Source: Prauserella flavalba
GTDB lineage: Bacteria; Actinomycetota; Actinomycetes; Mycobacteriales; Pseudonocardiaceae
Reading direction: 5' to 3'
Assembly (NCBI RefSeq): GCF_003202235.1
Contig: NZ_MASU01000007.1
Coordinates: 62,001-126,000, forward strand
DNA length: 64,000 nt
The notes under the pieces: model-generated
Told to the model about the DNA's origin: nothing
Databases searched by the model: none
What the model saw: the letters and a program-made list of their open reading frames with translations, nothing else
Shown here: positions 721-55,054 of the stretch, in pieces
Numbering within the stretch: position 1 is the stretch's first letter
Layout: every line of letters starts with the position of its first letter
Program-made: the position numbers and the translations under genes

Positions 721-2199
721 CGACCCCGGAGACACGTGTGCCTGATCGAAGCCGGACCGTCCGATGTGGACGACCCGGCGGTGTTGCAGCTGAACCGTTG
801 GATGGCGCTGCTGGAGTCCGGCTACGACTGGGACTATCTCGTGGAGCCGCAGGAGTCCGGCAACTCGTTCCTGCGGCACGCGAGGGCGAAGGTGCTGGGC
901 GGCTGCTCGTCGCACAACTCGTGCATCGCGTTCTGGGCACCGGCGGAGGATCTCGACGAGTGGGCCTCGCTCGGCCTTCCGGGCTGGTCGGCGGCCGACG
1001 TCTTCCCGCTGTACCAGCGGCTCGAGACCAACGACGGGCCCGGAGAGCACCACGGCCGGTCCGGCCCGGTGACGATCCGCTCGGTGCCGCCGACGGACCC
1101 CGCGGGCGTCGCGCTGCTGGAGGCGTGCGCGCAGGCGGGGATCCCGCGCACGGAGTTCAACTCGGGCACCACTGTCACCCACGGCGCGAACTGGTTCCAG
1201 ATCAACGCGCGCGAGGACGGCACGCGCTCGTCGGCGTCGGTGTCGTACCTGCACCCCATTCTCGGTAAACGGTCCAATCTGGAGGTTCGTACCGGGGTGC
1301 GGGCCAAGCGGCTCACGTTCGACGGGCTGCGCTGCACCGGCGTGGAGGTGCTCACCGAGGACCTGCTGCACAGCGAGACCGTCGTGGCGCGGCGCGAGGT
1401 GATCGTGAGCACGGGCGCGATCGACACGCCCAAGCTGCTGATGCTCTCGGGCATCGGTCCCGCGGAGCATCTCACCGGCCTCGGCATCGACGTGCTCGTG
1501 GACGCCCCCGGCGTCGGCGAGAACCTGCAGGACCACCCCGAGGGCGTGATCCAGTGGGAGGCGCGCAGGCCGATGGTCACCGATTCCACGCAGTGGTGGG
1601 AGATCGGCATCTTCACCACCACGGAGCCGGGGCTGGACCGGCCGGACCTGATGTTCCACTACGGCGCGGTGCCGTTCGACCTGAACACGCTGCGGCACGG
1701 TTACCCGACGACGGAGAACGGCTTCTGCCTGACGCCGAACGTCACGCGCTCGCGCTCCACCGGCACGGTCCGCCTGCGCACGAGGGACTTCCGCGACAAG
1801 CCGAAGGTCGACCCCCGGTACTTCACCGACCCGCACGACCTGCGGGTGATGACGTACGGCATCCGGCTGGCGCGCGAGATCGTGTCGCAGCCGGCGATGG
1901 CGGAGTGGGCCGGTCCTGAGCTCGCACCGGGTATCGACACGACGAGCGACGACGAGATCGCCGACTACCTGCGCAAGACCCACAACACCGTCTACCACCC
2001 CTCGTGCACGGTGAAGATGGGTCCCGCGAGCGACCCGCTCGCGCCGCTCGACGAGCGGCTGCGCGTCCGCGGCGTCGACGGCCTGCGCGTGGCCGACGGC
2101 TCCGCGATGCCGTTCCTCGTGGCGGTGAACCCGTGCATCACCACGATGGCGATCGGCGAGAAGTGCGCGGACATGGTCGCCGAGGACGCCCGCCGCTGA
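721..2199 (+). pseudogene. GMC oxidoreductase (choline dehydrogenase-like) lacking its FAD-binding N-terminus
   Basis: Similarity to GMC flavoprotein oxidoreductases begins abruptly at VCLIEAGPSD, the end of the second beta strand of the Rossmann fold. The preceding 30 or so residues, which should carry the GxGxxG dinucleotide motif, are absent. The rest is intact: RAKVLGGCSSHN (GMC signature 1), STGAIDTPKLLMLSGIG (signature 2), and the C-terminal HPSCTVKMG plus NPCITTMAIGEK catalytic region. The first possible start is GTG at 736, with no convincing ribosome site. Without the FAD fold the product should be inactive. Either a deletion fused it to the permease upstream, or the sequence or assembly lost bases here. 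Confidence 0.7.
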
Positions 2200-2211
2200 G
2201 CCACGCCTCCG

Positions 2212-2312
2212 CGAGTCGTGCGCTCCCGTTCGCGAGTCGTGCGCTCCCGTTCGCGAGTTCCCCCTTCCGGACGGCGAGTCGTGCGTTCGGGACCGCGAGT
2301 CGTGCGTTCGCG
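2212..2312 (+). repeat. 21-bp tandem repeat array A (five units, forward orientation)
   Basis: Five units start at 2213, 2234, 2255, 2276 and 2297 (position of GAG), exactly 21 bp apart. The best-conserved part is GCGAGTCGTGCG followed by a variable CTCCCGTTC or TTCGGGACC; the third unit is degenerate. The array fills the gap between the oxidoreductase and the glycolipid-binding gene and ends about 15 bp before the latter's start. Array B, on the other side of that gene, is the same unit in the opposite orientation. There are no unique spacers, so it is not a CRISPR. Confidence 0.9.
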
Positions 2313-2326
2313 GCTACCGTTGCGGT

Positions 2327-2908
2327 ATGTCCTTCGCCGCGCCGCCCGCGAGCGCCGCCTGGTCCCACGAGGGTGCGCGATCCGGGTTCGAGGTCGCCTA
2401 CTTCGAGCCCGGCGCCGAGGGGTACCACCTGCGCGGCTGCACCACGGCCGTCGAGCACGACGTGCCCTGGATCGTCGGCTACGACATCGCGGTGGACCGC
2501 ACCTGGACGACGCGCCGGGCTGTCGTCACCGCGCGGTGGGCCACGGGCACGCGCACGACGGTGCTCGAGGCCGACGGCGAGGGGCACTGGTGGGTCGACG
2601 GCGCCGAGGCGGGTGACCTGGACGGCTGCCTCGACGTCGACCTGGAGTCCTCGGCGATGACCAACACGCTGCCGGTGCACCGCCTCGCGCTGCCGCCGGG
2701 ACGGCGGGCGTCGGCACCGGCGGCGTACGTGCGCGCGGAGGACCTCACCGTCGAACGGCTGGAGCAGGATTACGAGCACCTCGTCGACAACGGCAGGCGG
2801 CAGCGGTACGACTACTCCGCTCGCGCCTTCGAGTTCACCTGCACCCTGGTCTACGACGAGTCGGGGCTCGTCCTGTCCTACCCCGGCATCGCCGCGCGCA
2901 CGGCCTGA
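2327..2908 (+). CDS. Putative glycolipid-binding domain protein (PF06475/DUF1089-like)
   Basis: This 193-residue cytosolic protein matches the putative glycolipid-binding family typified by Pseudomonas PA1994. Features include a central Trp pair (GHWWVDG, near residue 86), the LDVDLESSAMTNTLPVHRL segment and the C-terminal YDYSARAFEFTCTLVYDESGLVLSYPG. It has no signal peptide or membrane segment. The family's name comes from a structural resemblance to lipoprotein-localisation folds, and no reaction is established. There is no ribosome site before ATG 2327, but TACCGT at 2315-2320 is well placed as a -10 element for a leaderless transcript. The gene is bracketed by repeat arrays A and B. Confidence 0.7.
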   Translation: MSFAAPPASAAWSHEGARSGFEVAYFEPGAEGYHLRGCTTAVEHDVPWIVGYDIAVDRTWTTRRAVVTARWATGTRTTVLEADGEGHWWVDGAEAGDLDGCLDVDLESSAMTNTLPVHRLALPPGRRASAPAAYVRAEDLTVERLEQDYEHLVDNGRRQRYDYSARAFEFTCTLVYDESGLVLSYPGIAARTA

Positions 2909-3006
2909 ACGCACGACTCGCGGTCCCGAACGCACGACTCGCGGTCCCGAACGCACGACTCGCGGTCCCGAACGCACGACTCGCGGTCGGGAACGCACGA
3001 CTCGCG
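2907..3006 (-). repeat. 21-bp tandem repeat array B (five units, reverse orientation)
   Basis: Five copies of GCACGACTCGCG start at 2911, 2932, 2953, 2974 and 2995, exactly 21 bp apart. They are separated by GGTCCCGAAC (GGTCGGGAAC before the last). This is the reverse complement of the unit in array A. It begins inside the stop codon of the upstream gene and ends 7 bp before the stop of the convergent gntR. Four units are nearly identical, which suggests recent amplification or homogenisation. Confidence 0.92.
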
Positions 3007-3013
3007 CAGTGGG

Positions 3014-3730
3014 TCAGCGTTGCCAGAGGGGGAGCATCGCGTCGCGGACCTCGGCGAGCAGCTCGCGCATGCCGTCCTCGGCGTCGGCGGCGCGCCCGCT
3101 CGCGACGGCGCGGGCCACCTCCTCGTGCAGGGCCAGCGCCTCGGGAACGGGCTGGTGCGGCATGAGGCCGAGCTGGGTCCGGCCACGCAGCACCACGGCG
3201 ACCACGTCGGCTAGCGCGCCGAACATCTCGTTGCCGCTCGCCTCCAGCAGCAGCCGGTGGAAGGCGATGTCGAGCTCGAGGAACTCGTCGAGTTTGCCCG
3301 CCTCGCCGAGCCCGCGCATCTGCCCCGCGACGGCCAGCACCCGCTCGCGCTCCGCCGCCGACGCGCTGCGCGCCGCCGCGGACGCCGCGAGCGGTTCGAT
3401 CGCGATCCGCAGTTCGGTGAGCGACCGCAGCTGGGCGTCCCGCCCCGACCCGGACAGGCGCCACCAGATCACCCTGGGATCGAAGACGTTCCACGAGTCG
3501 CGCGGCTGCACGGTGATGCCCACGCGGCGCCGCGACGTGACCAGCCCCATCGACTCCAGGATCCGCATCGTCTCGCGGGCGACCGTGCGCGAGACGCCGA
3601 ACCGCTCCTGGATGCGGTCGAGCGTGAGGACGTGACCGGCGGGCAGCTCACCGCAGGTGATCTCGCGTCCGATCTTGTCCAGCACCGGACTGTGCCTCGA
3701 CTCGGCACCCGGTTCGTCCCCGACTCCCAC
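3014..3730 (-). CDS. gntR: GntR-family (FadR/FCD) transcriptional regulator of gluconate genes
   Basis: The roughly 238-residue product has an N-terminal winged helix (LTLDRIQERFGVSRTVARETMRILESMGLV) and a C-terminal all-helical FCD ligand-binding domain with its metal/ligand histidines (DIAFHRLLLEASGN, ALHEEV). It is divergent from gntK across a 94-bp gap holding GntR1-like operators, so it most likely represses the gluconate/idonate operon and itself until gluconate or a relative binds. I chose GTG 3730 because TAGGCT lies 6 bp upstream on this strand, as for a leaderless start; TTG 3736 is possible. The gene ends beside repeat array B. Confidence 0.85.
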   Translation of the reverse strand: MGVGDEPGAESRHSPVLDKIGREITCGELPAGHVLTLDRIQERFGVSRTVARETMRILESMGLVTSRRRVGITVQPRDSWNVFDPRVIWWRLSGSGRDAQLRSLTELRIAIEPLAASAAARSASAAERERVLAVAGQMRGLGEAGKLDEFLELDIAFHRLLLEASGNEMFGALADVVAVVLRGRTQLGLMPHQPVPEALALHEEVARAVASGRAADAEDGMRELLAEVRDAMLPLWQR

Positions 3731-3772
3731 GCGCAAAGCCTATCCGGGAGGGCCCTCTTTCCCGGCTCCACC

Positions 3773-17494: not shown

Positions 17495-18178
17495 GTGGTG
17501 TCGGGGAACGGGGGCTTCCGGAGCGGGCGGGTCAAGCCGTACCGGAAGTACAAGCCGCTGCCTGCCCTGATCGTGATCGGGGTGCTGGGGCTCGTGGCGG
17601 CGTTCGTGTGGGTGAACGCCATTTCGTCGAACACCGACCTCGAAGAGGCGATCCGGTGTCAGCCGTCGCCGACTCCGACCGGAGGCGTCACCTACACCCC
17701 GCAGCCCCACGACGCGCTCGACGCCACGCAGCCCACGCCGCCGGACCGCGTGGCGGTGCGGGTGCTCAACGCGAGCGGCACGCGCGGCCAGGCCGCGATG
17801 ACCACGGAGGGTATGCGCCGGCTCGGGTTCACGCAGATCGCCGAGCCGGAGAACGACCCCGCCTACGCCAGCGCCGAGGCGAACTGCCACGGCCAGATCC
17901 GCTACGGCGCCAACGGCGAAGGCGCGGCGCGCACGGTCGCGCTGGTCGATCCGTGCCTCGAGCTGGTGCGGGACAACCGGCAGGACGCGACGGTGGACCT
18001 CGCGATCGGCACCGCGTTCAACGACGCGCGGCTGACCACGGCGGCACGGGACGTGCTCGACCGGCTCAACGCGTGGTCGGCGCAGAACCGCGGCACCGGC
18101 GATTCGGAACAGTCGACCGGCAGGGGCCCGACCATCGACCAGGCCCTCCTCGACCAGACCCGCCCCGAGCACTGCTGA
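17495..18178 (+). CDS. cei: Envelope integrity protein Cei (LytR_C domain, single-pass membrane)
   Basis: This protein of about 227 residues has a basic N-terminus (VKPYRKYKPLP), one transmembrane helix (about 28-50) and an extracytoplasmic LytR C-terminal domain (VAVRVLNASGTRGQAAMTTEGMRRLGF). It also carries a cysteine pair (EANCHGQ and VDPCLEL), possibly a disulfide. It is the Rv2700 orthologue by position; Cei is reported to be needed for mycobacterial cell-envelope integrity. GTG 17495 is chosen because GGAAGGGA lies about 8 bp upstream; GTG 17465 is a longer alternative. A strong palindrome follows. Confidence 0.85.
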   Translation: MVSGNGGFRSGRVKPYRKYKPLPALIVIGVLGLVAAFVWVNAISSNTDLEEAIRCQPSPTPTGGVTYTPQPHDALDATQPTPPDRVAVRVLNASGTRGQAAMTTEGMRRLGFTQIAEPENDPAYASAEANCHGQIRYGANGEGAARTVALVDPCLELVRDNRQDATVDLAIGTAFNDARLTTAARDVLDRLNAWSAQNRGTGDSEQSTGRGPTIDQALLDQTRPEHC

Positions 18179-18183
18179 GCCAA

Positions 18184-18240
18184 CGGCCCCCAAGGCCACC
18201 TTGGTTGCGTTGAACGCAACCAAGGTGGCCTTGGGGGCCG
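18184..18240. repeat. Double-hairpin palindrome, copy 1 (AAGGCCACCTT family)
   Basis: A perfect 28-bp inverted repeat lies around a single central base: left arm 18184-18211, right arm 18213-18240. Each arm is itself a hairpin (CCAAGG-CCA-CCTTGG), and the centre is GCGTTGAACGC. It sits between the convergent cei and suhB genes and can act as a terminator for both. Related copies lie at 47457, 53410 and (half) 58411. Confidence 0.93.
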
Positions 18241-18252
18241 ATCAATGGGTGG

Positions 18253-19089
18253 TCAGACTCCGCCCGCGCCGCATTTGACGACGGCGGTGCGCAGTGCGTC
18301 GGCGATGGAGGGTGCCGCCGCGAGCGTGCCGTCCACGCCCAGCTCCGGGTCCTCCCCCGGCAGCGAGACGACCGCGCCTGCCTCGGCGGCGATCAGGGCG
18401 CCCGCCGCCCAGTCCCAGCGGTGCAGCCCGTGCTCGAAGTACGCGTCGGTCCAGCCTGCCGCCACCGCGCACAGGTCCAGCGCCGCCGAGCCGGGCCTGC
18501 GGATGTCGCGCACGTGGCCGAGCAGGCCCGCGACCAGCTCCGCCTGACGGGCCCTGCGCTCCGGCACGTAGGCGAACCCGGTGCCGAGCAGCGCCAGATC
18601 GAGCCGCTCCGGCTCCGACACCCGCAGCGGCCTGCCGTCCAGCCACGACCCTGCCCCGCGCGTGCCGGTCCAGCGCCGCCCGCTCACCGGCTCGACGACG
18701 GCACCAGCCACGGACACGCCGCCGACCTGCGCCGCGACGGAGACGGCGAACTCCGGGAGCCCGTAGAGGAAGTTGACGGTGCCGTCGATCGGGTCGACGA
18801 CCCACGTGACGCCGTCGCCCGCCCGGCCACCCTCCTCCTCGCCCAGTACCGGCTCCCCAGGGCGCAGCTCGGCGAGCCGGGTACGGATGAGCTGCTCCGA
18901 CTCGCGGTCGACGGCGGTGACCACGTCGGTGGCGCTGGTCTTGGTGTCGACACTCACGGCGCGGCCCGCGAGCATGGACTCGCGGGCGCGCAGGACGAGC
19001 CCGGCGGCCTCGGCGGCGACCTGCTCGGCGACGGTGGTCAGGGCAGCGGCCTCGGCTGCGTCGAGTTCGGTGGCTTCGAAGGCTCCCAC
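18253..19089 (-). CDS. suhB: Inositol monophosphatase family protein
   Basis: This metal-dependent phosphatase of the SuhB/IMPase family is likely to release myo-inositol from inositol-1-phosphate, a precursor of phosphatidylinositol and mycothiol. The roughly 278 residues contain the metal-binding [17 protein letters not shown] (signature 1) and the late [15 protein letters not shown] (signature 2). It is the Rv2701c equivalent, divergent from ppgK. The start is GTG 19089 or GTG 19107; neither has a clear ribosome site. Its stop is 13 bp from the palindrome shared with cei. Confidence 0.9.
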
Positions 19090-33713: not shown

Positions 33714-34847
33714 TCAGGAGATCCCGAGCTCCGAGCAGGTCGCCTGCAGATCACCCGTGCAGACCTCGCTGGCCTTGACGTAGCCCTCGTCGATCACGCG
33801 CTTGACCTCGTCCTTCGTGATCAGGTAGGGCTCCAGCAGCACGGACTTGACCTCGCGGTTGCCCTCGGGGTCGTGGCTCTTGTCCTTCGCCAGGGCGTCG
33901 GCGGCCGCCGTGTCGCCCTTGGCCAGTGCGGCGGCGAGCTTCGCCGTCGCCTCGGCCTCCTCCTGGATGGGCTTGAAGACCGTCATGTACTGGTCGCCGC
34001 GCAGGATGGCCTTGAGGCCGTCCGGGGTGGCGTCCTGGCCGGTCACGGGGACCTTGCCGGCCATGCCGTTCTTCTTGAGCACCGTGATGATCGCGCCCGC
34101 GAGCCCGTCGTTGGCGGCGACGACGCCGTCGACCTTGCCGCCGTTGGACGTCAGGATCTGCTCGAAGGTCGTGCCGCCCTTCTGGTTGTTCCAGTCGTCG
34201 ATGGGCTGGCTCTGCACGAGCTTGAGGGTGCCGTTGTCGTACAGCGGCTGCAGGACGTTGCGCTGGCCCTCGTGGAAGAGCGTCGCGTTGTTGTCCGTGG
34301 GGGCGCCCTCGATCTCGATGACCTGCGCGCCGCGCTTGCCCTCGAGCGCCTTGGCGAGGCCCTCGCCCTGGAGCTCGCCGACCTTCACGTTGTCGAAGGA
34401 GACGTAGTAGTCGGAGCCGCCGCCGAGGTTGAGGCGGTCGTAGTCGATGGTCGGGATGCCCGCGTTCTTGGCCTTGGCCGCGACCGCGCTGCCGACCTCG
34501 CTGTTGATCGAGGCGATCACGAGCACCTTCACGCCCTGGGAGATCATGCCGTCGGCCAGCGTCGTGAACTTCTGGACGTCACCCTGGGCGTTCTGCACGT
34601 CGGGGTCGAACCCCTCGGCGCGCAGCGCCTCCTCGATCATCGGCTTGTCGAAGCCCTCCCAGCGGGCCGAGGTGGCCGTCTCGGGGAGGATCACGCCGAC
34701 CTTGCCGTTCGGGGCGGCTTCTTCCTGCGCGGACGTATCGCCCGCGCCGCCCTCGTCGCCGCCCCCGGTGTTGGCACCGCAAGCCGCGAGCGTGAACGTA
34801 ACGCCCAGCACGGCGGCGGCGAATGCAAGAGGTCTCTTGGTCCGCAT
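33714..34847 (-). CDS. xylF: Sugar-binding lipoprotein of an ABC transporter, XylF-like
   Basis: This 377-residue extracytoplasmic lipoprotein has a signal peptide with lipobox LAAC (Cys22 or so), a Gly-rich linker, then a periplasmic-binding-protein type I domain. That domain has GVILPETATSARWEGF, IDYDRLNLGGGSDYYVSFDN, VVAANDGLAGAII and GQDATPDGLKAIL, all typical of XylF. It binds xylose or a similar sugar for XylG/XylH. GGAAAGG lies 7-8 bp before ATG 34847. It is the first gene of the operon; promoter and operator candidates lie upstream. Confidence 0.88.
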   Translation of the reverse strand: MRTKRPLAFAAAVLGVTFTLAACGANTGGGDEGGAGDTSAQEEAAPNGKVGVILPETATSARWEGFDKPMIEEALRAEGFDPDVQNAQGDVQKFTTLADGMISQGVKVLVIASINSEVGSAVAAKAKNAGIPTIDYDRLNLGGGSDYYVSFDNVKVGELQGEGLAKALEGKRGAQVIEIEGAPTDNNATLFHEGQRNVLQPLYDNGTLKLVQSQPIDDWNNQKGGTTFEQILTSNGGKVDGVVAANDGLAGAIITVLKKNGMAGKVPVTGQDATPDGLKAILRGDQYMTVFKPIQEEAEATAKLAAALAKGDTAAADALAKDKSHDPEGNREVKSVLLEPYLITKDEVKRVIDEGYVKASEVCTGDLQATCSELGIS

Positions 34848-35010: not shown

Positions 35011-35287
35011 CGCGAGTCGTGCACTCCAGCCCGCGAGTCGTGCACTCCGGACCGCGAGTCGTGCGCTCAGGAACGGCGCGGCACCCGGGTTTCGACCCCC
35101 GAGCGGGCAACTCGGGCACCAGAGCGGCAACTCACGGGCTCGAGCGGGCAACTCGCGCGCCAGAGCGGGGGACTCGCGAACGGGAACGCACGACTCGCGA
35201 ACGGGAACGCACGACTCGCGAGCAGGAACGCACGACTCGCGAGCAGGAACGCACGACTCGCGAACGGGAACGCACGACTCGCGGGGC
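35011..35287. repeat. 21-bp repeat array C with two opposed halves
   Basis: Three forward units (GAG at 35014, 35035 and 35056, GCGAGTCGTGCACTC) are followed by a degenerate stretch. Six reverse units follow (GACTC at 35171, 35192, 35213, 35234, 35255 and 35276, with GGGAACGCACGACTCGCG), again 21 bp apart. AACTC at 35109, 35129 and 35150 are decayed reverse units at 20-21 bp spacing. The array fills the gap between the xylF promoter and the helicase stop codon. Same family as arrays A and B. Confidence 0.9.
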
Positions 35288-35289
35288 GG

Positions 35290-37050
35290 TTACCAGCTGC
35301 GGAGGGTGGCGATGCGCTCCTCGAGCTGCTCCACCGTGGCCATCGCGGTGGGCGGGCCGCCGCAGATGCGGCGCAGCTCGCTGTGGATGGCACCGTGGGG
35401 CTTGCGGGTGCGGTGGTGGTAGACGCCGACGAGGGTGTTGAGCTCCTTGCGCAGCGACTGGATCCGCTCGCTCACCGACCTCGGCTTCGGCGCCGCCTCG
35501 GCGGCAGGCGCCTCCGCGGCCTGCGGCTTGCGCCGCTTGGCGTCGGCGAGCTGCTCCTCCTGCCGCTTGCGCAGCAGCGCGCGCACCTGGTCCGGCTCCA
35601 GCAGCCCCGGAAGCCCCAGGTACTCCTGCTCCTCGTCGCTGCCGGAGAAGACCGCGGTGCCGAAGGAGTTCCCGTCGTAGATCACCTGGTCCAGCTCGGC
35701 GGATGCGCCGAGCGACGTGAACGCCTTCTCCTCCTCGCCGGGCTCGTCCTCGGTGCGGTTGGCGGCGACGAGCAGCTCGTCGTCCCAGCCGTCCTTCTCG
35801 CGGTGGGGCTTGCCGAGCACGTGGTCGCGCTCGGCCTCCAGCTCGCTCGCCAGCTCCAGCAGCACCGGAACGCTCGGCAGGAACACGCTCGCCGTCTCAC
35901 CCTGCTTGCGCGACCGCACGAACCGGCCGATCGCCTGCGCGAAGAACAGCGGCGTCGACGCGCTCGTCGCGTACACGCCCACGGCGAGCCGGGGCACGTC
36001 GACGCCCTCCGACACCATGCGCACGGCCACGAGCCAGCGGTCCTCCGAGTCGGAGAACTCGCCGATCCGCTTGGTGGCCTTGGGATCGTCGGAGAGCACC
36101 ACCACGGGCGGCTCGCCCGCGATCCGCGTGAGGATCTTGGCGTAGGCCCTCGCCGACTCCTGGTCGGTGGCGATCACCAGCCCGCCCGCGTCCGGGATGC
36201 CCGCGGAGCGCAGCTGCGTGAGCCGCGTGTCGGCGGCCTGCAGCACCGAGGGCACCCATTCGCCCCCGGGGTCGAGCGCGGTGCGCCACGCCCTCGCCGT
36301 CTGCTCCGCCGTCAGCGGCTCACCGAGCCGGGCCGTGAACTCGTCGCCCGCGCTGGTCCGCCACGACGCCTCCCCCGAGTAGGCGAGGAACACGACGGGC
36401 CGGACGACGCCGTCGGCGAGCGCGTCGGCGTAGCCGTAGGAGTGGTCGGCCTTGCTGCGCAGGGAGCCATCCGCGTCGGGTTCGTAGGTGACGAACGGGA
36501 TCGGCGAGTCGTCGCTGCGGAAGGGCGTACCGGTCAGCGCCAGCCTGCGCACCGCGGGCGTGAACGCCTCCGACACGGCCTCGCCCCACGACTTGGCGTC
36601 ACCGGCGTGGTGGATCTCGTCGAGGATCACCAGCGTCTTGCGGTTCTCCGTGCGCACCCGGTGCAGGTTCGGGTGGGCGGCGATCTGCGCGTACGTGACG
36701 GCGACGCCCTGGTAGTCGGACGAGGTGACGCCCGTGGTGTTGCGGAAGTTCGAGTCGATGGCGATGCCGGCCGCCGCCGCCGAGATCGCCCACTGGTGCT
36801 TGAGGTGCTCGGTCGGCGTGACGATCGTGATCGCCTCGATGGTGCGGTCGGAGAGCAGCTCGGCGGCGATCCGCAGGCCGAAGACGGTCTTGCCGGCGCC
36901 GGGCGTCGCCACGGCGAGGAAGTCCTTGGGCTTCTGCGTGAGGTACTTCGTGAGTGCCCTGCGCTGCCACGCGCGCAGGGGGCGGGCGGTGGCGTCGTGC
37001 TGGGGTTCGGGTGCGGCGAACCCGTGCTGGGCCTGGGCCGTATCCGACAC
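35290..37050 (-). CDS. DEAD/DEAH-box superfamily 2 helicase
   Basis: This 586-residue SF2 helicase of the type III-restriction/UvrB-like class has Walker A ATPGAGKT, DEIH motif II (LVILDEIHHAG), LTGTPFR motif III and C-terminal motifs (VSEGVDVPRLAVGV, QAIGRFVRSRKQG). A C-terminal helical region (about 480-586) with a charged segment (LLRKRQEEQLADAKRRK) resembles no known domain. It probably remodels DNA or RNA; there is no adjacent nuclease or methylase, so a restriction role is not indicated. GTG 37050 has GAGAGGAG upstream. The stop abuts repeat array C. Confidence 0.85.
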   Translation of the reverse strand: MSDTAQAQHGFAAPEPQHDATARPLRAWQRRALTKYLTQKPKDFLAVATPGAGKTVFGLRIAAELLSDRTIEAITIVTPTEHLKHQWAISAAAAGIAIDSNFRNTTGVTSSDYQGVAVTYAQIAAHPNLHRVRTENRKTLVILDEIHHAGDAKSWGEAVSEAFTPAVRRLALTGTPFRSDDSPIPFVTYEPDADGSLRSKADHSYGYADALADGVVRPVVFLAYSGEASWRTSAGDEFTARLGEPLTAEQTARAWRTALDPGGEWVPSVLQAADTRLTQLRSAGIPDAGGLVIATDQESARAYAKILTRIAGEPPVVVLSDDPKATKRIGEFSDSEDRWLVAVRMVSEGVDVPRLAVGVYATSASTPLFFAQAIGRFVRSRKQGETASVFLPSVPVLLELASELEAERDHVLGKPHREKDGWDDELLVAANRTEDEPGEEEKAFTSLGASAELDQVIYDGNSFGTAVFSGSDEEQEYLGLPGLLEPDQVRALLRKRQEEQLADAKRRKPQAAEAPAAEAAPKPRSVSERIQSLRKELNTLVGVYHHRTRKPHGAIHSELRRICGGPPTAMATVEQLEERIATLRSW

Positions 37051-45789: not shown

Positions 45790-47454
<1,665 letters not shown>

Positions 47455-47456
47455 CC

Positions 47457-47509
47457 GCAGTGAAGGCCACCTTCACTGCGTTGAACGCAGTGAAGGTGGC
47501 CTTCACTGC
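47457..47509. repeat. Double-hairpin palindrome, copy 2 (AAGGCCACCTT family)
   Basis: A perfect 26-bp inverted repeat surrounds one central base: 47457-47482 and 47484-47509. The arms read GCAGTGAAGG-CCA-CCTTCACTGC, each a hairpin by itself, and the centre is GCGTTGAACGC as in copy 1. It starts 2 bp after the fumarase stop and lies between convergent genes. Confidence 0.93.
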
Positions 47510-47527
47510 AGCCTGGCCCTAGGAACC

Positions 47528-48001
47528 CTAGGAACCCTGGGAGGTCTGGGAGCTCTGGGAGCCGTTCTCGCCGAACATGCCCGCCAGGCGGTCCAGCGTC
47601 TTGCGGATGCCGGCCTTGTTCTTGGCGGGGAACCGGGCGAGCTCGATCAGGAACGGGATGCGCGCCGTCGACCAGTCGAACGTCTCCGTCACCGAGGTCC
47701 TGCCCTCGCCGGCGGGTTCGAGCTCCCAGCGCCAGCGGTGCCCGTTGAAGTGCCGCCACGCGATGAGGCGGTTCTTCTCGTACTCGACCACGGTGTTCCT
47801 GATTTTGTACGGGGCGCCCATCTTCATGTCCATGCCGAACTTCGACCCGAGCTCCAGCCGGTCCGGGTTGCCCGCGTGAGCGGCCTGGACCGTCCCGGAG
47901 CCGTCGAGCAGCGGGTGCTTGGCCGGGTCGGTGAGCAGGTCGAAGATCTGCTCGGGTGAGGCGGCGACCGTGGTGGTGACGGAGACCTGACGGCGTGTCA
48001 T
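47528..48001 (-). CDS. SRPBCC/START-like polyketide cyclase-dehydrase family protein
   Basis: This 157-residue helix-grip-fold protein has VTTTVAASPEQIFDLLTDPAKHPLLDGSG at the start, LIAWRHFNGHRWRWELEP in the sheet, SVTETFDWSTARIP, and the long C-terminal helix (IRKTLDRLAGMF). Members bind lipids or aromatic ligands; no specific ligand is evident. The last residues are a Ser/Gln run (GSQSSQTSQGS) coded by imperfect CTGGGAG-like repeats between 47522 and 47560. It lies 20 bp downstream of the lipoprotein gene on the same strand. Confidence 0.82.
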   Translation of the reverse strand: MTRRQVSVTTTVAASPEQIFDLLTDPAKHPLLDGSGTVQAAHAGNPDRLELGSKFGMDMKMGAPYKIRNTVVEYEKNRLIAWRHFNGHRWRWELEPAGEGRTSVTETFDWSTARIPFLIELARFPAKNKAGIRKTLDRLAGMFGENGSQSSQTSQGS

Positions 48002-52611: not shown

Positions 52612-53400
52612 ATGACCGACGCGCACGCTCTGGTGGAACAACGCGGGCACACGCTCGTGGTGACGATGAACCGGCCCGAGGCACGCAACGCCCTCACCGG
52701 CGAGATGCTGGCGATCATGGTCGAGGCGTGGGACCGGGTGGACGACGATCCGGAGATCCGCGCGTGCGTGCTGACCGGCGCGGGCGGGGCGTTCTCCGCC
52801 GGGGCGGACCTGAAGTCGATGAGCCGCGACAGCCCGTCGACGGCGTTCGAGAAGGGCACATTCGACCCGAGCCACATCGACGGTCTGCTCAAGGGCCGCA
52901 GGCTCACCAAGCCGCTGATCGCCGCGGTCGAGGGCCCCGCGATCGCGGGCGGCACCGAGATCCTGCAGGGCACCGACATCCGGATCGCCGGGGAGAGCGC
53001 GAAGTTCGGCGTGTCGGAGGCGCGCTGGGGGCTGTTCCCGCTCGGCGGCTCGGCGGTACGGCTACCCCGGCAGATCCCGTACACGCTCGCGGCGGAGATC
53101 CTGCTGACCGGCAAGCACCTCACGGCGGCGGAGGCGAAGGAGATCGGCCTCATCGGGCACGTCGTCCCCGACGGCACGGCACTGGAGAGGGCACTGGAGA
53201 TCGCGGACACGATCGCCGCGAACGGACCGCTCGCGGTGCGGGCGATCCTGCGGACCATGCGCGACACCGAGGGCATGCACGAGGAGGAGGCGTTCAAGCT
53301 CGACGCCCAGTACGGCGTCGCCGTCTTCGCGAGCGAGGACGCCAGGGAGGGCCCGCGCGCCTTCGCCGAGAAGCGCACGCCGAACTTCCAGGACCGATGA
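52612..53400 (+). CDS. echA19: Enoyl-CoA hydratase EchA19 (steroid side chain)
   Basis: The 262-residue crotonase hydrates steroid enoyl-CoA in side-chain beta-oxidation. It has [28 protein letters not shown] (oxyanion hole), [19 protein letters not shown] with the second oxyanion Gly, and [24 protein letters not shown]. The C-terminus ([14 protein letters not shown]) closely follows M. tuberculosis Rv3516. ATG 52612 has GAGGAGAGG upstream. A palindrome of the AAGGCCACCTT family follows its stop. Confidence 0.93.
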
Positions 53401-53409
53401 CGACACTGC

Positions 53410-53464
53410 TGCCCCCAAGGCCACCTTCGGTGCGTTGAGCGCACCAAAGGTGGCCTTGGGGGCA
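53410..53464. repeat. Double-hairpin palindrome, copy 3 (AAGGCCACCTT family)
   Basis: 27-bp arms 53410-53436 and 53438-53464 match at 25 positions. The centre is GCGTTGAGCGC (one base different from copies 1 and 2). The arms read CCCCCAAGGCCACCTT then CGGTGCG, pairing with CGCACCAAAGGTGGCCTTGG. It separates the convergent echA19 and FadD4-like genes. Confidence 0.9.
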
Positions 53465-53479
53465 GGTCAGGGCGGGGCG

Positions 53480-55054
53480 TCAGATGGAGCGTTCGCGGCC
53501 CTGCCAGTAGGGGTCACGGAGCTTGCGCTTGTAGAGCTTGCCGTTGGGATCCCTCGGCAGCGCCTCGGTGTAGTCGATGCTGCGCGGCAGCTTGAACCTG
53601 GCGAGCCGGCCGCGCGCGTACTCCAGCAGCTCCTCGGTGAGCCGATCGGAGGGTTCCACGCCCTCCGCGGGCTGGACCACCGCCTTGATCTCCTCACCCC
53701 AGTCCTCGTGCGGCACGCCGAACACCGCCACGTCGGCGACCTTCGGGTGCAACACGAGCTCGTTCTCGATCTCGGCGGGATAGATGTTCACCCCACCCGA
53801 GATGATCATGTCGTTCTTGCGGTCGTGCAGGTACAGGTAGCCGTCCTCGTCGAGGTAACCGACATCGCCGAGCGTGAACAGGTTGCCCACACGGGCCTTC
53901 TCGGTCTTCGCCCTGTCCCTGTGGTACTCGAACGACGAGTCGCCCATGCGCATGTAGACGGTCCCGGCCTCGCCGGGCGGCAGCTCGGCGCCGTCGTCGT
54001 CGAGCACCTTGATCGTCGATCCCGGCCACGGCCTGCCGACCGAGCCGGGTTTGCGCAGCCACTCCTCGCCGCTGATCGCGGTGCCGCCGCCCTCGGTGGC
54101 CGCGTAGTACTCGGTGACCACGGGCCCCCACCAGTCCAGCATCCGCCGCTTCACCTCGTGCGGGCACGGCGCCGCGCCGTGGATCATATTCCGCAGCGAC
54201 GACAGGTCGTAGCGCTCGCGCACGTCCTCCGGCAGCGCCAGCAGCCTGCGGAACTGGGTGGGCACCATGTGGCTGTGGGTCACGCGGTGCCGCTCGATGA
54301 GCGCGAGCATCCGCTCCGGGTCCCAGCGGTCCATCAGCACGGCGGGATGCCCGAGCTGGATGGAGATCGCGACGAAGTTGAGCACCGCCGTGTGGTAGAG
54401 CGGCGAGCCGCACAGGTGCACGTGCCCGTCGAACGGCTTGAGCCCGAAGATGCCGAAGAACCACGTCGACGCGGCGGGCACGGTGTCCGGGTCGGCACCG
54501 GTGAGCGGGCGGCGCACGCCCTTGGACCGGCCGGTGGTGCCCGACGTGTAGAGCATCGGCGAGCCCGCGGTCCTGCGCTCGGGCCGCCCCTCGCCGCCGG
54601 CCGCGGCGAGCTCGGCGACGTCACGGAAACCCGGTACGGCACCGACGGCGAACCGCCCGTCGGCCGCGAGTCCCGCCTCGTCGGCGGCCGCGACGGCGAC
54701 GTCGGTGAACCGTTCGTGCGCGAGGAACGCCTTGGCCCCCGAGTCGCCGATGATGTAGGCGACCTCGGGCCCCACGAGGTGCCAGTTGACCATCACGACG
54801 TAGAGGCCGGACTGGATCGCCGCGAAGTAGGCGGCGAGCAGCTCGGAGCCGTTCGGCTGGAGCACCACGATCGCGTCGCCGGTCTCCAGCCCCAGCGCCT
54901 GCAGGCCCCTGGCGTAGGCGTTCGCCTTGCCGGCGAGCTCGCCGTAGGTGACCTCGGTGCCGTCGGGATCCACCACCGCGACGAGGTCGGGCCGCTCGGC
55001 GGCGAGGTTCCACAGGCCGATGGTGTCCGTTGCCGGAGCAGTGGTTGTGGGCAT
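53480..55054 (-). CDS. Acyl-CoA synthetase, FadD4-like
   Basis: This 524-residue ANL ligase has the P-loop LYTSGTTGRSKGVRR, AAPCPHEVKRRMLDWWGPVVTEYY, GDVGYLDEDGYLYLHDRKNDMII and the catalytic Lys in LPRDPNGKLYKR. Resemblance to M. tuberculosis FadD4 (Rv0214) is closer than to FadD3, FadD17 or FadD19. Its promoter carries a perfect KstR consensus, so it belongs to the sterol regulon here and may activate a different side-chain acid. ATG 55054 is chosen; the longer frame upstream covers the operator. It is divergent from the DUF35 gene. Confidence 0.87.
   Translation of the reverse strand: MPTTTAPATDTIGLWNLAAERPDLVAVVDPDGTEVTYGELAGKANAYARGLQALGLETGDAIVVLQPNGSELLAAYFAAIQSGLYVVMVNWHLVGPEVAYIIGDSGAKAFLAHERFTDVAVAAADEAGLAADGRFAVGAVPGFRDVAELAAAGGEGRPERRTAGSPMLYTSGTTGRSKGVRRPLTGADPDTVPAASTWFFGIFGLKPFDGHVHLCGSPLYHTAVLNFVAISIQLGHPAVLMDRWDPERMLALIERHRVTHSHMVPTQFRRLLALPEDVRERYDLSSLRNMIHGAAPCPHEVKRRMLDWWGPVVTEYYAATEGGGTAISGEEWLRKPGSVGRPWPGSTIKVLDDDGAELPPGEAGTVYMRMGDSSFEYHRDRAKTEKARVGNLFTLGDVGYLDEDGYLYLHDRKNDMIISGGVNIYPAEIENELVLHPKVADVAVFGVPHEDWGEEIKAVVQPAEGVEPSDRLTEELLEYARGRLARFKLPRSIDYTEALPRDPNGKLYKRKLRDPYWQGRERSI

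Follow-up and report, generated by a model that had tools for sequence, protein, structure and literature searches.

Tandem 21-bp repeat arrays just past stop codons form a dispersed, position-conserved gene-end element in Prauserella

Introduction

GC-rich actinobacteria have few U-tract terminators, and the way in which they end transcription is understood only in part; T-runs are rare in GC-rich DNA according to a passage in PMC12207403. In Prauserella flavalba (genome of 8.09 Mb in 39 contigs), a stretch of 64 kb (C7:62001-126000), called the window below, contains two arrays of a 21-bp repeat, which stand in opposite orientations on either side of a putative glycolipid-binding gene. The locus raises the question of whether such a pair of arrays belongs to the gene it encloses or to the genes ending outside it, and whether it is read by its sequence or by pairing of its arms.

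Two array pairs in the window

The first array pair and its surroundings comprise the following features.

736..2199, + strand, GMC oxidoreductase gene (PF00732, PF05199), array A downstream
2211..2315, + strand, array A, five 21-bp units starting at 2211, 2232, 2253, 2274 and 2295
2327..2908, + strand, putative glycolipid-binding gene (PF06475 Glycolipid_bind, E 2.2e-49), between arrays A and B
2901..3005, - strand, array B, five 21-bp units, with five exact 12-mers between 2910 and 3005
3014..3736, - strand, GntR-type regulator gene (PF00392, FCD PF07729), array B downstream

The unit coordinates confirmed that each array has five units at an exact 21-bp spacing and that the two flank the glycolipid-binding gene on opposite strands. 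An earlier note had pointed out that every GAGTC core would lie on the same DNA face; this core is present in nine of the ten units of A and B pooled and missing from unit 3 of array A, which reads GCGAGTTCCCCC, the other four units of that array carrying exact GCGAGTCGTGCG. Unit 1 of array A lies 11 nt past the stop codon of the oxidoreductase gene (TGA, 2197-2199) and unit 1 of array B 8 nt past that of the GntR-type gene (3014, - strand), each in the same sense as its gene; the far end of array B overlaps the final bases of the glycolipid-binding gene. Together, the arrays constitute a 103-nt inverted repeat with 84% complementary arms, 597 nt apart. The exact 12-mer occurred 15 times in the window as compared to 0.24 expected (as many in 0 of 100 shuffles), and GCGAGT triples at a 21-bp period 12 times as compared to 0.00 expected. 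A scan of the 64-kb window with Rfam 15 gave no match above gathering score, and a search of positions 2000-3300 for stem-loops followed by T-runs, a weak test in GC-rich DNA, gave no site.

At the corresponding locus of P. cavernicola (L181), the GMC oxidoreductase, glycolipid-binding and GntR-type genes follow in the same order (93, 78 and 88% identical). A + strand array begins 3 nt past the oxidoreductase stop and a 7-unit - strand array lies at the GntR-type stop, with a core sequence different from that of P. flavalba. Gene order and both arrays are thus kept, which excludes, for this locus, that the inverted arrays bound a cassette or a mobile gene, and indicates that the glycolipid-binding gene is merely flanked by two gene-end elements. 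The earlier idea that the element concerns the enclosed gene was not supported: both arrays come after the stops of outer genes, and most elements enclose no gene. Called genes between opposed arrays were seen at two more loci (L027 4468-4992 and L055 5044-6156).

The window holds another opposed array pair at 35012-35282, which the earlier note had not listed.

33714-34847, - strand, gene of the periplasmic binding protein family
35012..35074, + strand, distal arm in opposed orientation, with 3 units, at 164 bp from gene 33714-34847 (-)
35136..35282, - strand, proximal arm, 7 units, 7 nt past the stop of the helicase-like gene
35290-37050, - strand, helicase-like gene

Inner units of the proximal arm (35136-35282) have GCGAGTCCCCCGCTC and GCGAGTTGCCCGCTC cores.

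Anatomy of the repeat unit

Throughout the genome, 135 exact 12-mer pairs were found at 21-bp spacing and none with the reversed control pattern; when the spacing was allowed to vary between 12 and 42 bp, 149 pairs were counted. For closer analysis, 39 stretches from among the matches listed, one other stretch and the window were combined into a sample of 41 stretches (474,638 bases), which contained 74 arrays of 2-11 units each and 366 units. Intervals between units were 21 bp in 286 of 292 cases, where chaining permitted just 20-22, 41-43 and 63 bp. The expectation that the 21-bp period is kept elsewhere in the genome was thus borne out.

The unit, GCGAGTCGTGCGYTCNNGNNC, is a non-palindromic direct repeat. 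A position profile was derived from 252 units at separate loci that have GCGAGT next, so that the search itself sets positions 1-6. Of the other positions, 7-11, 14, 15, 18 and 21 were mostly constant, position 12 was mainly G or A and position 13 mainly C or T, and positions 16, 17, 19 and 20 were variable. The units closest to the consensus were the outer ones, in near and far arms alike; T at position 7, for instance, was absent from all 74 first units and present in 2 of the 74 second units and in about 20 of 61 fourth units. Spacers within arms were homogenised (similarity 0.60), and identical spacers were shared by units 2 and 3 in 34% of arms and by units 1 and 2 in just 18%, which argues against recent copying as the cause of unit 1 conservation. 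Of the 258 copies of the 11-mer GCGAGTCGTGC in the 474,638 bases, 257 lie in arrays and one elsewhere, these stretches having been chosen for arrays. Helical phase is fixed and the core conserved, as would be expected of protein-roadblock arrays, and the combination of conserved core, free spacer and 21-bp phase fits cooperative, sequence-specific binding by a putative protein.

Position relative to genes

Genes were called with a purpose-written codon-usage caller; at the orthologues tested, its stops agreed with those of relatives (0-6 extra residues). Mapping of the arrays against these genes, as proposed when the repeat was first noticed, placed none of the 74 arrays of the 41-stretch sample inside a called gene, which rules out a coding repeat, and 46 of them just 3' of a same-sense stop codon, at a distance of 1-38 nt (median 7). 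The other 28 have no same-sense stop within 40 nt; most of these are the far arm in a tandem gap, where one arm adjoins a stop and the opposite arm stands free. The sample has 184 gaps of at least 60 bp, and 46 contain arrays. Among tandem gaps the number is 30 of 94, among convergent gaps 14 of 35 and among divergent gaps 2 of 55, so that arrays are depleted in divergent gaps as compared to the rest (Fisher p 3.8e-6). The sole arrays in divergent gaps, L050 4985-5110 and L055 6010-6156, possibly reflect gene-call errors.

Orientation was likewise regular in P. flavalba. Stop-adjacent arrays of at least 3 units were same-sense in 45 cases and antisense in 7, and neighbouring opposed arrays faced each other (-> <-) in 27 of 27 pairs. 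The arrays are a dispersed, position-conserved gene-end element: tandem 21-bp units that start about 7 nt past a stop codon and often face a second array. Since they mark gene ends, long open frames running across them would probably be false gene calls, which may be of practical aid in annotation.

Ribosomes leave the RNA at the stop, and same-sense placement right past it would also suit a signal in the nascent RNA, either a Rho rut-like site or the site of a sequence-specific RNA-binding protein. Such a signal would terminate transcription, or serve in protecting or processing the 3' end. In an opposed pair, the transcript coming in from either side would meet the motif in its sense form. 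Sites of the rut type are C-rich over G, whereas the sense units are not (C/G 0.95 in 366 units), a low-specificity factor does not account for one exact core, and two other genera have arrays of mixed polarity. We regard such an RNA-level signal as highly improbable.

Retention of arrays in relatives

Orthologues of 24 gene ends were queried in relatives, and 21 ends could be examined in P. endophytica and 18 in P. cavernicola. Absence from relatives had been named at the outset as evidence against the element; arrays of at least 2 units were present at 20 of 21 P. endophytica and 12 of 18 P. cavernicola ends. Stop-anchored arrays of P. endophytica (n=23) have the same median distance from the stop as those of P. 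flavalba. The remaining P. endophytica end (L174, the orthologue of L036) has one unit per arm, forming a 15-bp stem, at a place where P. flavalba has 4 and 6 units. Among the six P. cavernicola ends without an array, some (L192, L200) may belong to paralogues; L199, a second P. cavernicola candidate for one gene end, also lacked an array, and the orthologous end at L196 has a long hairpin instead of the array.

Unit number varied between orthologous arrays, and the core differed. At the 20 ends, the first listed array of P. endophytica opens with the core CCCCCG in 13 cases and with CGTGCG/A in 2; the stop-adjacent array of P. flavalba at the same ends opens with CGTGCG/A in 18. Inner units of either genome bear the other cores at lower frequency. 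Arrays kept at gene ends between species while their sequence changes point to a kind of gene-end punctuation that would be new; no description of an element like these arrays was found in open-licence papers, in agreement with the earlier note. In a further genome of the genus, G003, 12 matches were found to the loose pattern used for the wider search (GCGAGT triples at 21 bp), as compared to 238-282 in the other three genomes, which may reflect loss or a different core.

A selfish or neutral dispersed repeat, REP-like or an expanding minisatellite, could be tolerated past stop codons without having any function, with slippage and ectopic gene conversion keeping it homogeneous. Such a repeat would agree with the patchy occurrence among genera, with the uneven number of loose matches within the genus (12 in G003 against 238-282), with the differing unit numbers of orthologues and with the within-arm spacer similarity of 0.60. 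However, the same gene ends are occupied in three species, and the arrays are anchored to strand and stop codon. Conversion and slippage should homogenise core and spacer together, yet across loci the core alone is homogeneous. Furthermore, the REP-associated Y1 transposase (PF01797) was found in none of P. flavalba, P. endophytica and P. cavernicola, in 1 of 13 array-bearing and in 3 of 13 array-free genomes. A functionless repeat therefore appears improbable to us.

Pairing between opposed arms

The opposed arrays may instead be composite hairpin terminators, in which two arrays are the arms of a giant RNA hairpin, or of a hairpin cluster, acting in both directions without a U-tract. Several observations speak for it. 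The 28 gaps with paired arrays folded far better than their shuffles (mean z -7.5; 60 control gaps -2.1), with perfect core-core stem runs of 12-27 bp, all 27 opposed pairs of P. flavalba have the -> <- arrangement, and the P. endophytica end with one unit per arm amounts to a minimal hairpin. Passages of PMC12207403 and PMC8355165 report on U-tracts that are weak or not required, in Streptomyces as well as in other bacteria. On the other hand, the 18 gaps with a lone array showed no such structure (z -0.66), and pairing alone does not explain a single core throughout the genome.

Covariation was examined by comparing the match of same-locus arms with that of arms swapped in from other loci. 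Spacers of same-locus arms matched less well than swapped ones in P. flavalba (0.393 as compared to 0.466, below all 2000 swaps) and in P. endophytica (0.385 as compared to 0.436, 4 of 1000 swaps as low); in P. cavernicola the values were 0.420 and 0.431 (303 of 1000). An excess of core match in same-locus arms was not significant (P. endophytica, 0.588 as compared to 0.568 swapped; P. cavernicola, 0.605 as compared to 0.546, 86 of 1000 swaps as high). Complementarity did not extend to the outer flanks past the arrays (4.59 as compared to 4.77 swapped, 1622 of 2000 swaps as high). A hairpin family of the same genome, used as positive control with 15 copies, gave an arm match of 0.905 as compared to 0.735 swapped (0 of 5000). 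Compensatory change, as expected of hairpin terminators, was thus not found between array arms, and the large stem-loop that the earlier note had suggested might close the message received no support from the comparison of same-locus arms.

Selection against perfect runs of at least 22 bp, conceivable with regard to RNase III, received no support (2 of 28 elements as compared to 2.8 expected); the mean longest perfect run was slightly shorter than after swapping, at 16.3 bp as compared to 18.2 bp (as low in 13 of 5000). The instability of long perfect palindromes is a plain reason for spacers to mismatch; the part that is kept must then be a core bound by its sequence. The data favour an element that is read via sequence and phase over one read via arm pairing, and composite hairpin terminators seem unlikely, if less so than a functionless repeat.

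The control family is a second dispersed family, a hairpin with a 41-bp core (AAGGCCACCTT...AAGGTGGCCTT) between convergent genes, the arms of which covary. It numbers 219 copies in P. flavalba and 176 in P. endophytica; P. cavernicola has 2 copies, and each of 23 other genomes has at most one. Copies were also seen at L020, L021, L022, L041, L047, L050 and L056; those in the window are the following.

18178-18253, hairpin family copy
47454-47528, hairpin family copy
53400-53480, hairpin family copy

Long perfect or near-perfect hairpins occurred in 13 of 35 convergent gaps, 11 of the 13 being one family by eye. They were found in 0 of 14 convergent gaps with arrays and in 13 of 21 others (p 1.9e-4), in a test that omits hairpins overlapping arrays and in gaps where arrays leave little other DNA; among tandem gaps the numbers were 1 of 30 with arrays and 11 of 64 others. 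This mutual exclusion at convergent gaps is also what composite hairpin terminators would lead one to expect.

Comparison with known systems

REP and BIME sequences of E. coli and other bacteria resemble the arrays in being dispersed, extragenic and 3' of genes. The arrays are likewise extragenic and mainly 3' of genes (0 of 74 in genes; 2 of 46 array gaps divergent). They differ in that they consist of direct, non-palindromic 21-bp units, 2-11 per array, while the REP unit is a short imperfect palindrome, and in their strict sense orientation to the stop codon in P. flavalba. Identity with REP/RAYT was ruled out, as PF01797 is missing from the P. flavalba genome and the unit is not palindromic. 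According to a passage in PMC12306157, 446 of 4,072 predicted E. coli REPs lie at most 15 nt from a stop codon, and REPs that near to it stall ribosomes, as cited there.

A weak or absent U-tract is also found among the intrinsic terminators and hairpin clusters of GC-rich genomes, with which the arrays share the gene-end position and opposed, foldable arms; in P. flavalba, arrays occupy the same kind of places as the AAGGCCACCTT...AAGGTGGCCTT hairpins. Different from such terminators, array arms show no covariation, lone arms persist, and a repeated core is conserved throughout the genome.

The DUS and USS of Neisseria and Pasteurellaceae are, like the array core, one short genome-wide sequence with opposed copies at gene ends. 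They have lineage dialects, and copies are common in genes, too. The arrays are distinct in being tandem at a 21-bp period and in having a core nearly confined to arrays (1 of 258 outside, in 474,638 bases). Opposed DUS or USS copies at gene ends replace ordinary terminator stems according to a passage in PMC1852404.

Repeated sites just past a gene are also known from TTF-I and from roadblocks, to which the likeness is by analogy only. The arrays are bacterial, lie at many ordinary genes and are opposed, and their binding protein is putative. TTF-I binds to Sal boxes, tandem terminator boxes past eukaryotic rDNA, and forms a polar block to the polymerase. In bacteria, DNA-bound proteins can act as transcription roadblocks, as described in a passage of PMC10310618.

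Proposed function of the arrays

The reading we prefer, with a probability of roughly 0.45, is that the arrays are gene-end transcription insulators made up of two-turn-spaced sites for a putative sequence-specific factor; both the factor and termination are inferred from sequence. Each unit, with its core GCGAGTYNNNCRYTC, would be a DNA site for this protein, and sites two helical turns apart would allow proteins to stack on one face of the DNA. The stacked proteins could halt or delay an RNA polymerase as it leaves the gene, and an opposed array would block polymerases from the other side likewise. Because each arm would block polymerases from its own side, the pair would insulate neighbouring transcription units and stand in for the hairpin terminators with which the genome closes other genes. 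The core dialects may have arisen by joint change of sites and factor, or by ectopic gene conversion spreading a new core.

The outermost units, which a polymerase meets first, are the best kept on both sides, and from this we infer the step from bound sites to a DNA-bound polar roadblock. In its most specific form, opposed arrays would bind one putative lineage-specific protein as polar roadblocks, constituting an insulator system that works alongside hairpin and Rho termination, and co-evolution of site and protein would shift the core throughout the genome while positions stay; we put this forward tentatively, as a possibility. A repeat class that occupies gene ends to the exclusion of hairpins, stays in place between species while its core changes throughout the genome, and lacks arm covariation would open a direct route to studying how bacteria terminate or insulate transcription by means of proteins. 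It would also be an example from bacteria of a repeated recognition sequence turning over across a whole genome.

Occurrence outside Prauserella

The wider search with the loose pattern lets dialects with a core other than GCGAGT escape. Matches were found in 62 of 297 Pseudonocardiaceae genomes, with up to 282 in one genome and merely 1-2 in several; the reversed control mostly gave 0, with up to 23 in G153. Among other genomes of the class, 2 of 245 had the pattern, with one match each. Such a patchy distribution implies that the job of the array is dispensable.

In 40 stretches from other genera, 59 of 60 arrays lay outside genes, mostly adjoining gene ends. G006, which belongs to another genus, repeats the pattern of P. 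flavalba, with 13 same-sense and 2 antisense arrays, a median distance of 7 nt and the -> <- arrangement in 5 of 5 pairs. Stop-adjacent arrays were same-sense in 2 and antisense in 6 cases in G153 (g26), and in 6 and 4 cases in g15. The opposed pairs were of the type <- -> in 4 of 5 cases in G153 and in 4 of 6 in g15, some of the stretches having been picked for opposed matches listed. This mixed polarity, together with the 7 antisense stop-adjacent arrays of P. flavalba and the patchy distribution, counts against the insulator reading, as do the 28 of 74 arrays with no same-sense stop nearby, the two arrays in divergent gaps and the six P. cavernicola ends that lack an array.

With regard to a possible phage origin, the loose pattern occurred in 64 stretches of a viral collection, 58 of them with a single match. 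In G153 (L069-L076) and g15 (L077-L086, L092-L094), some of the <- -> arrays share a central ACTCGCGAGT palindrome.
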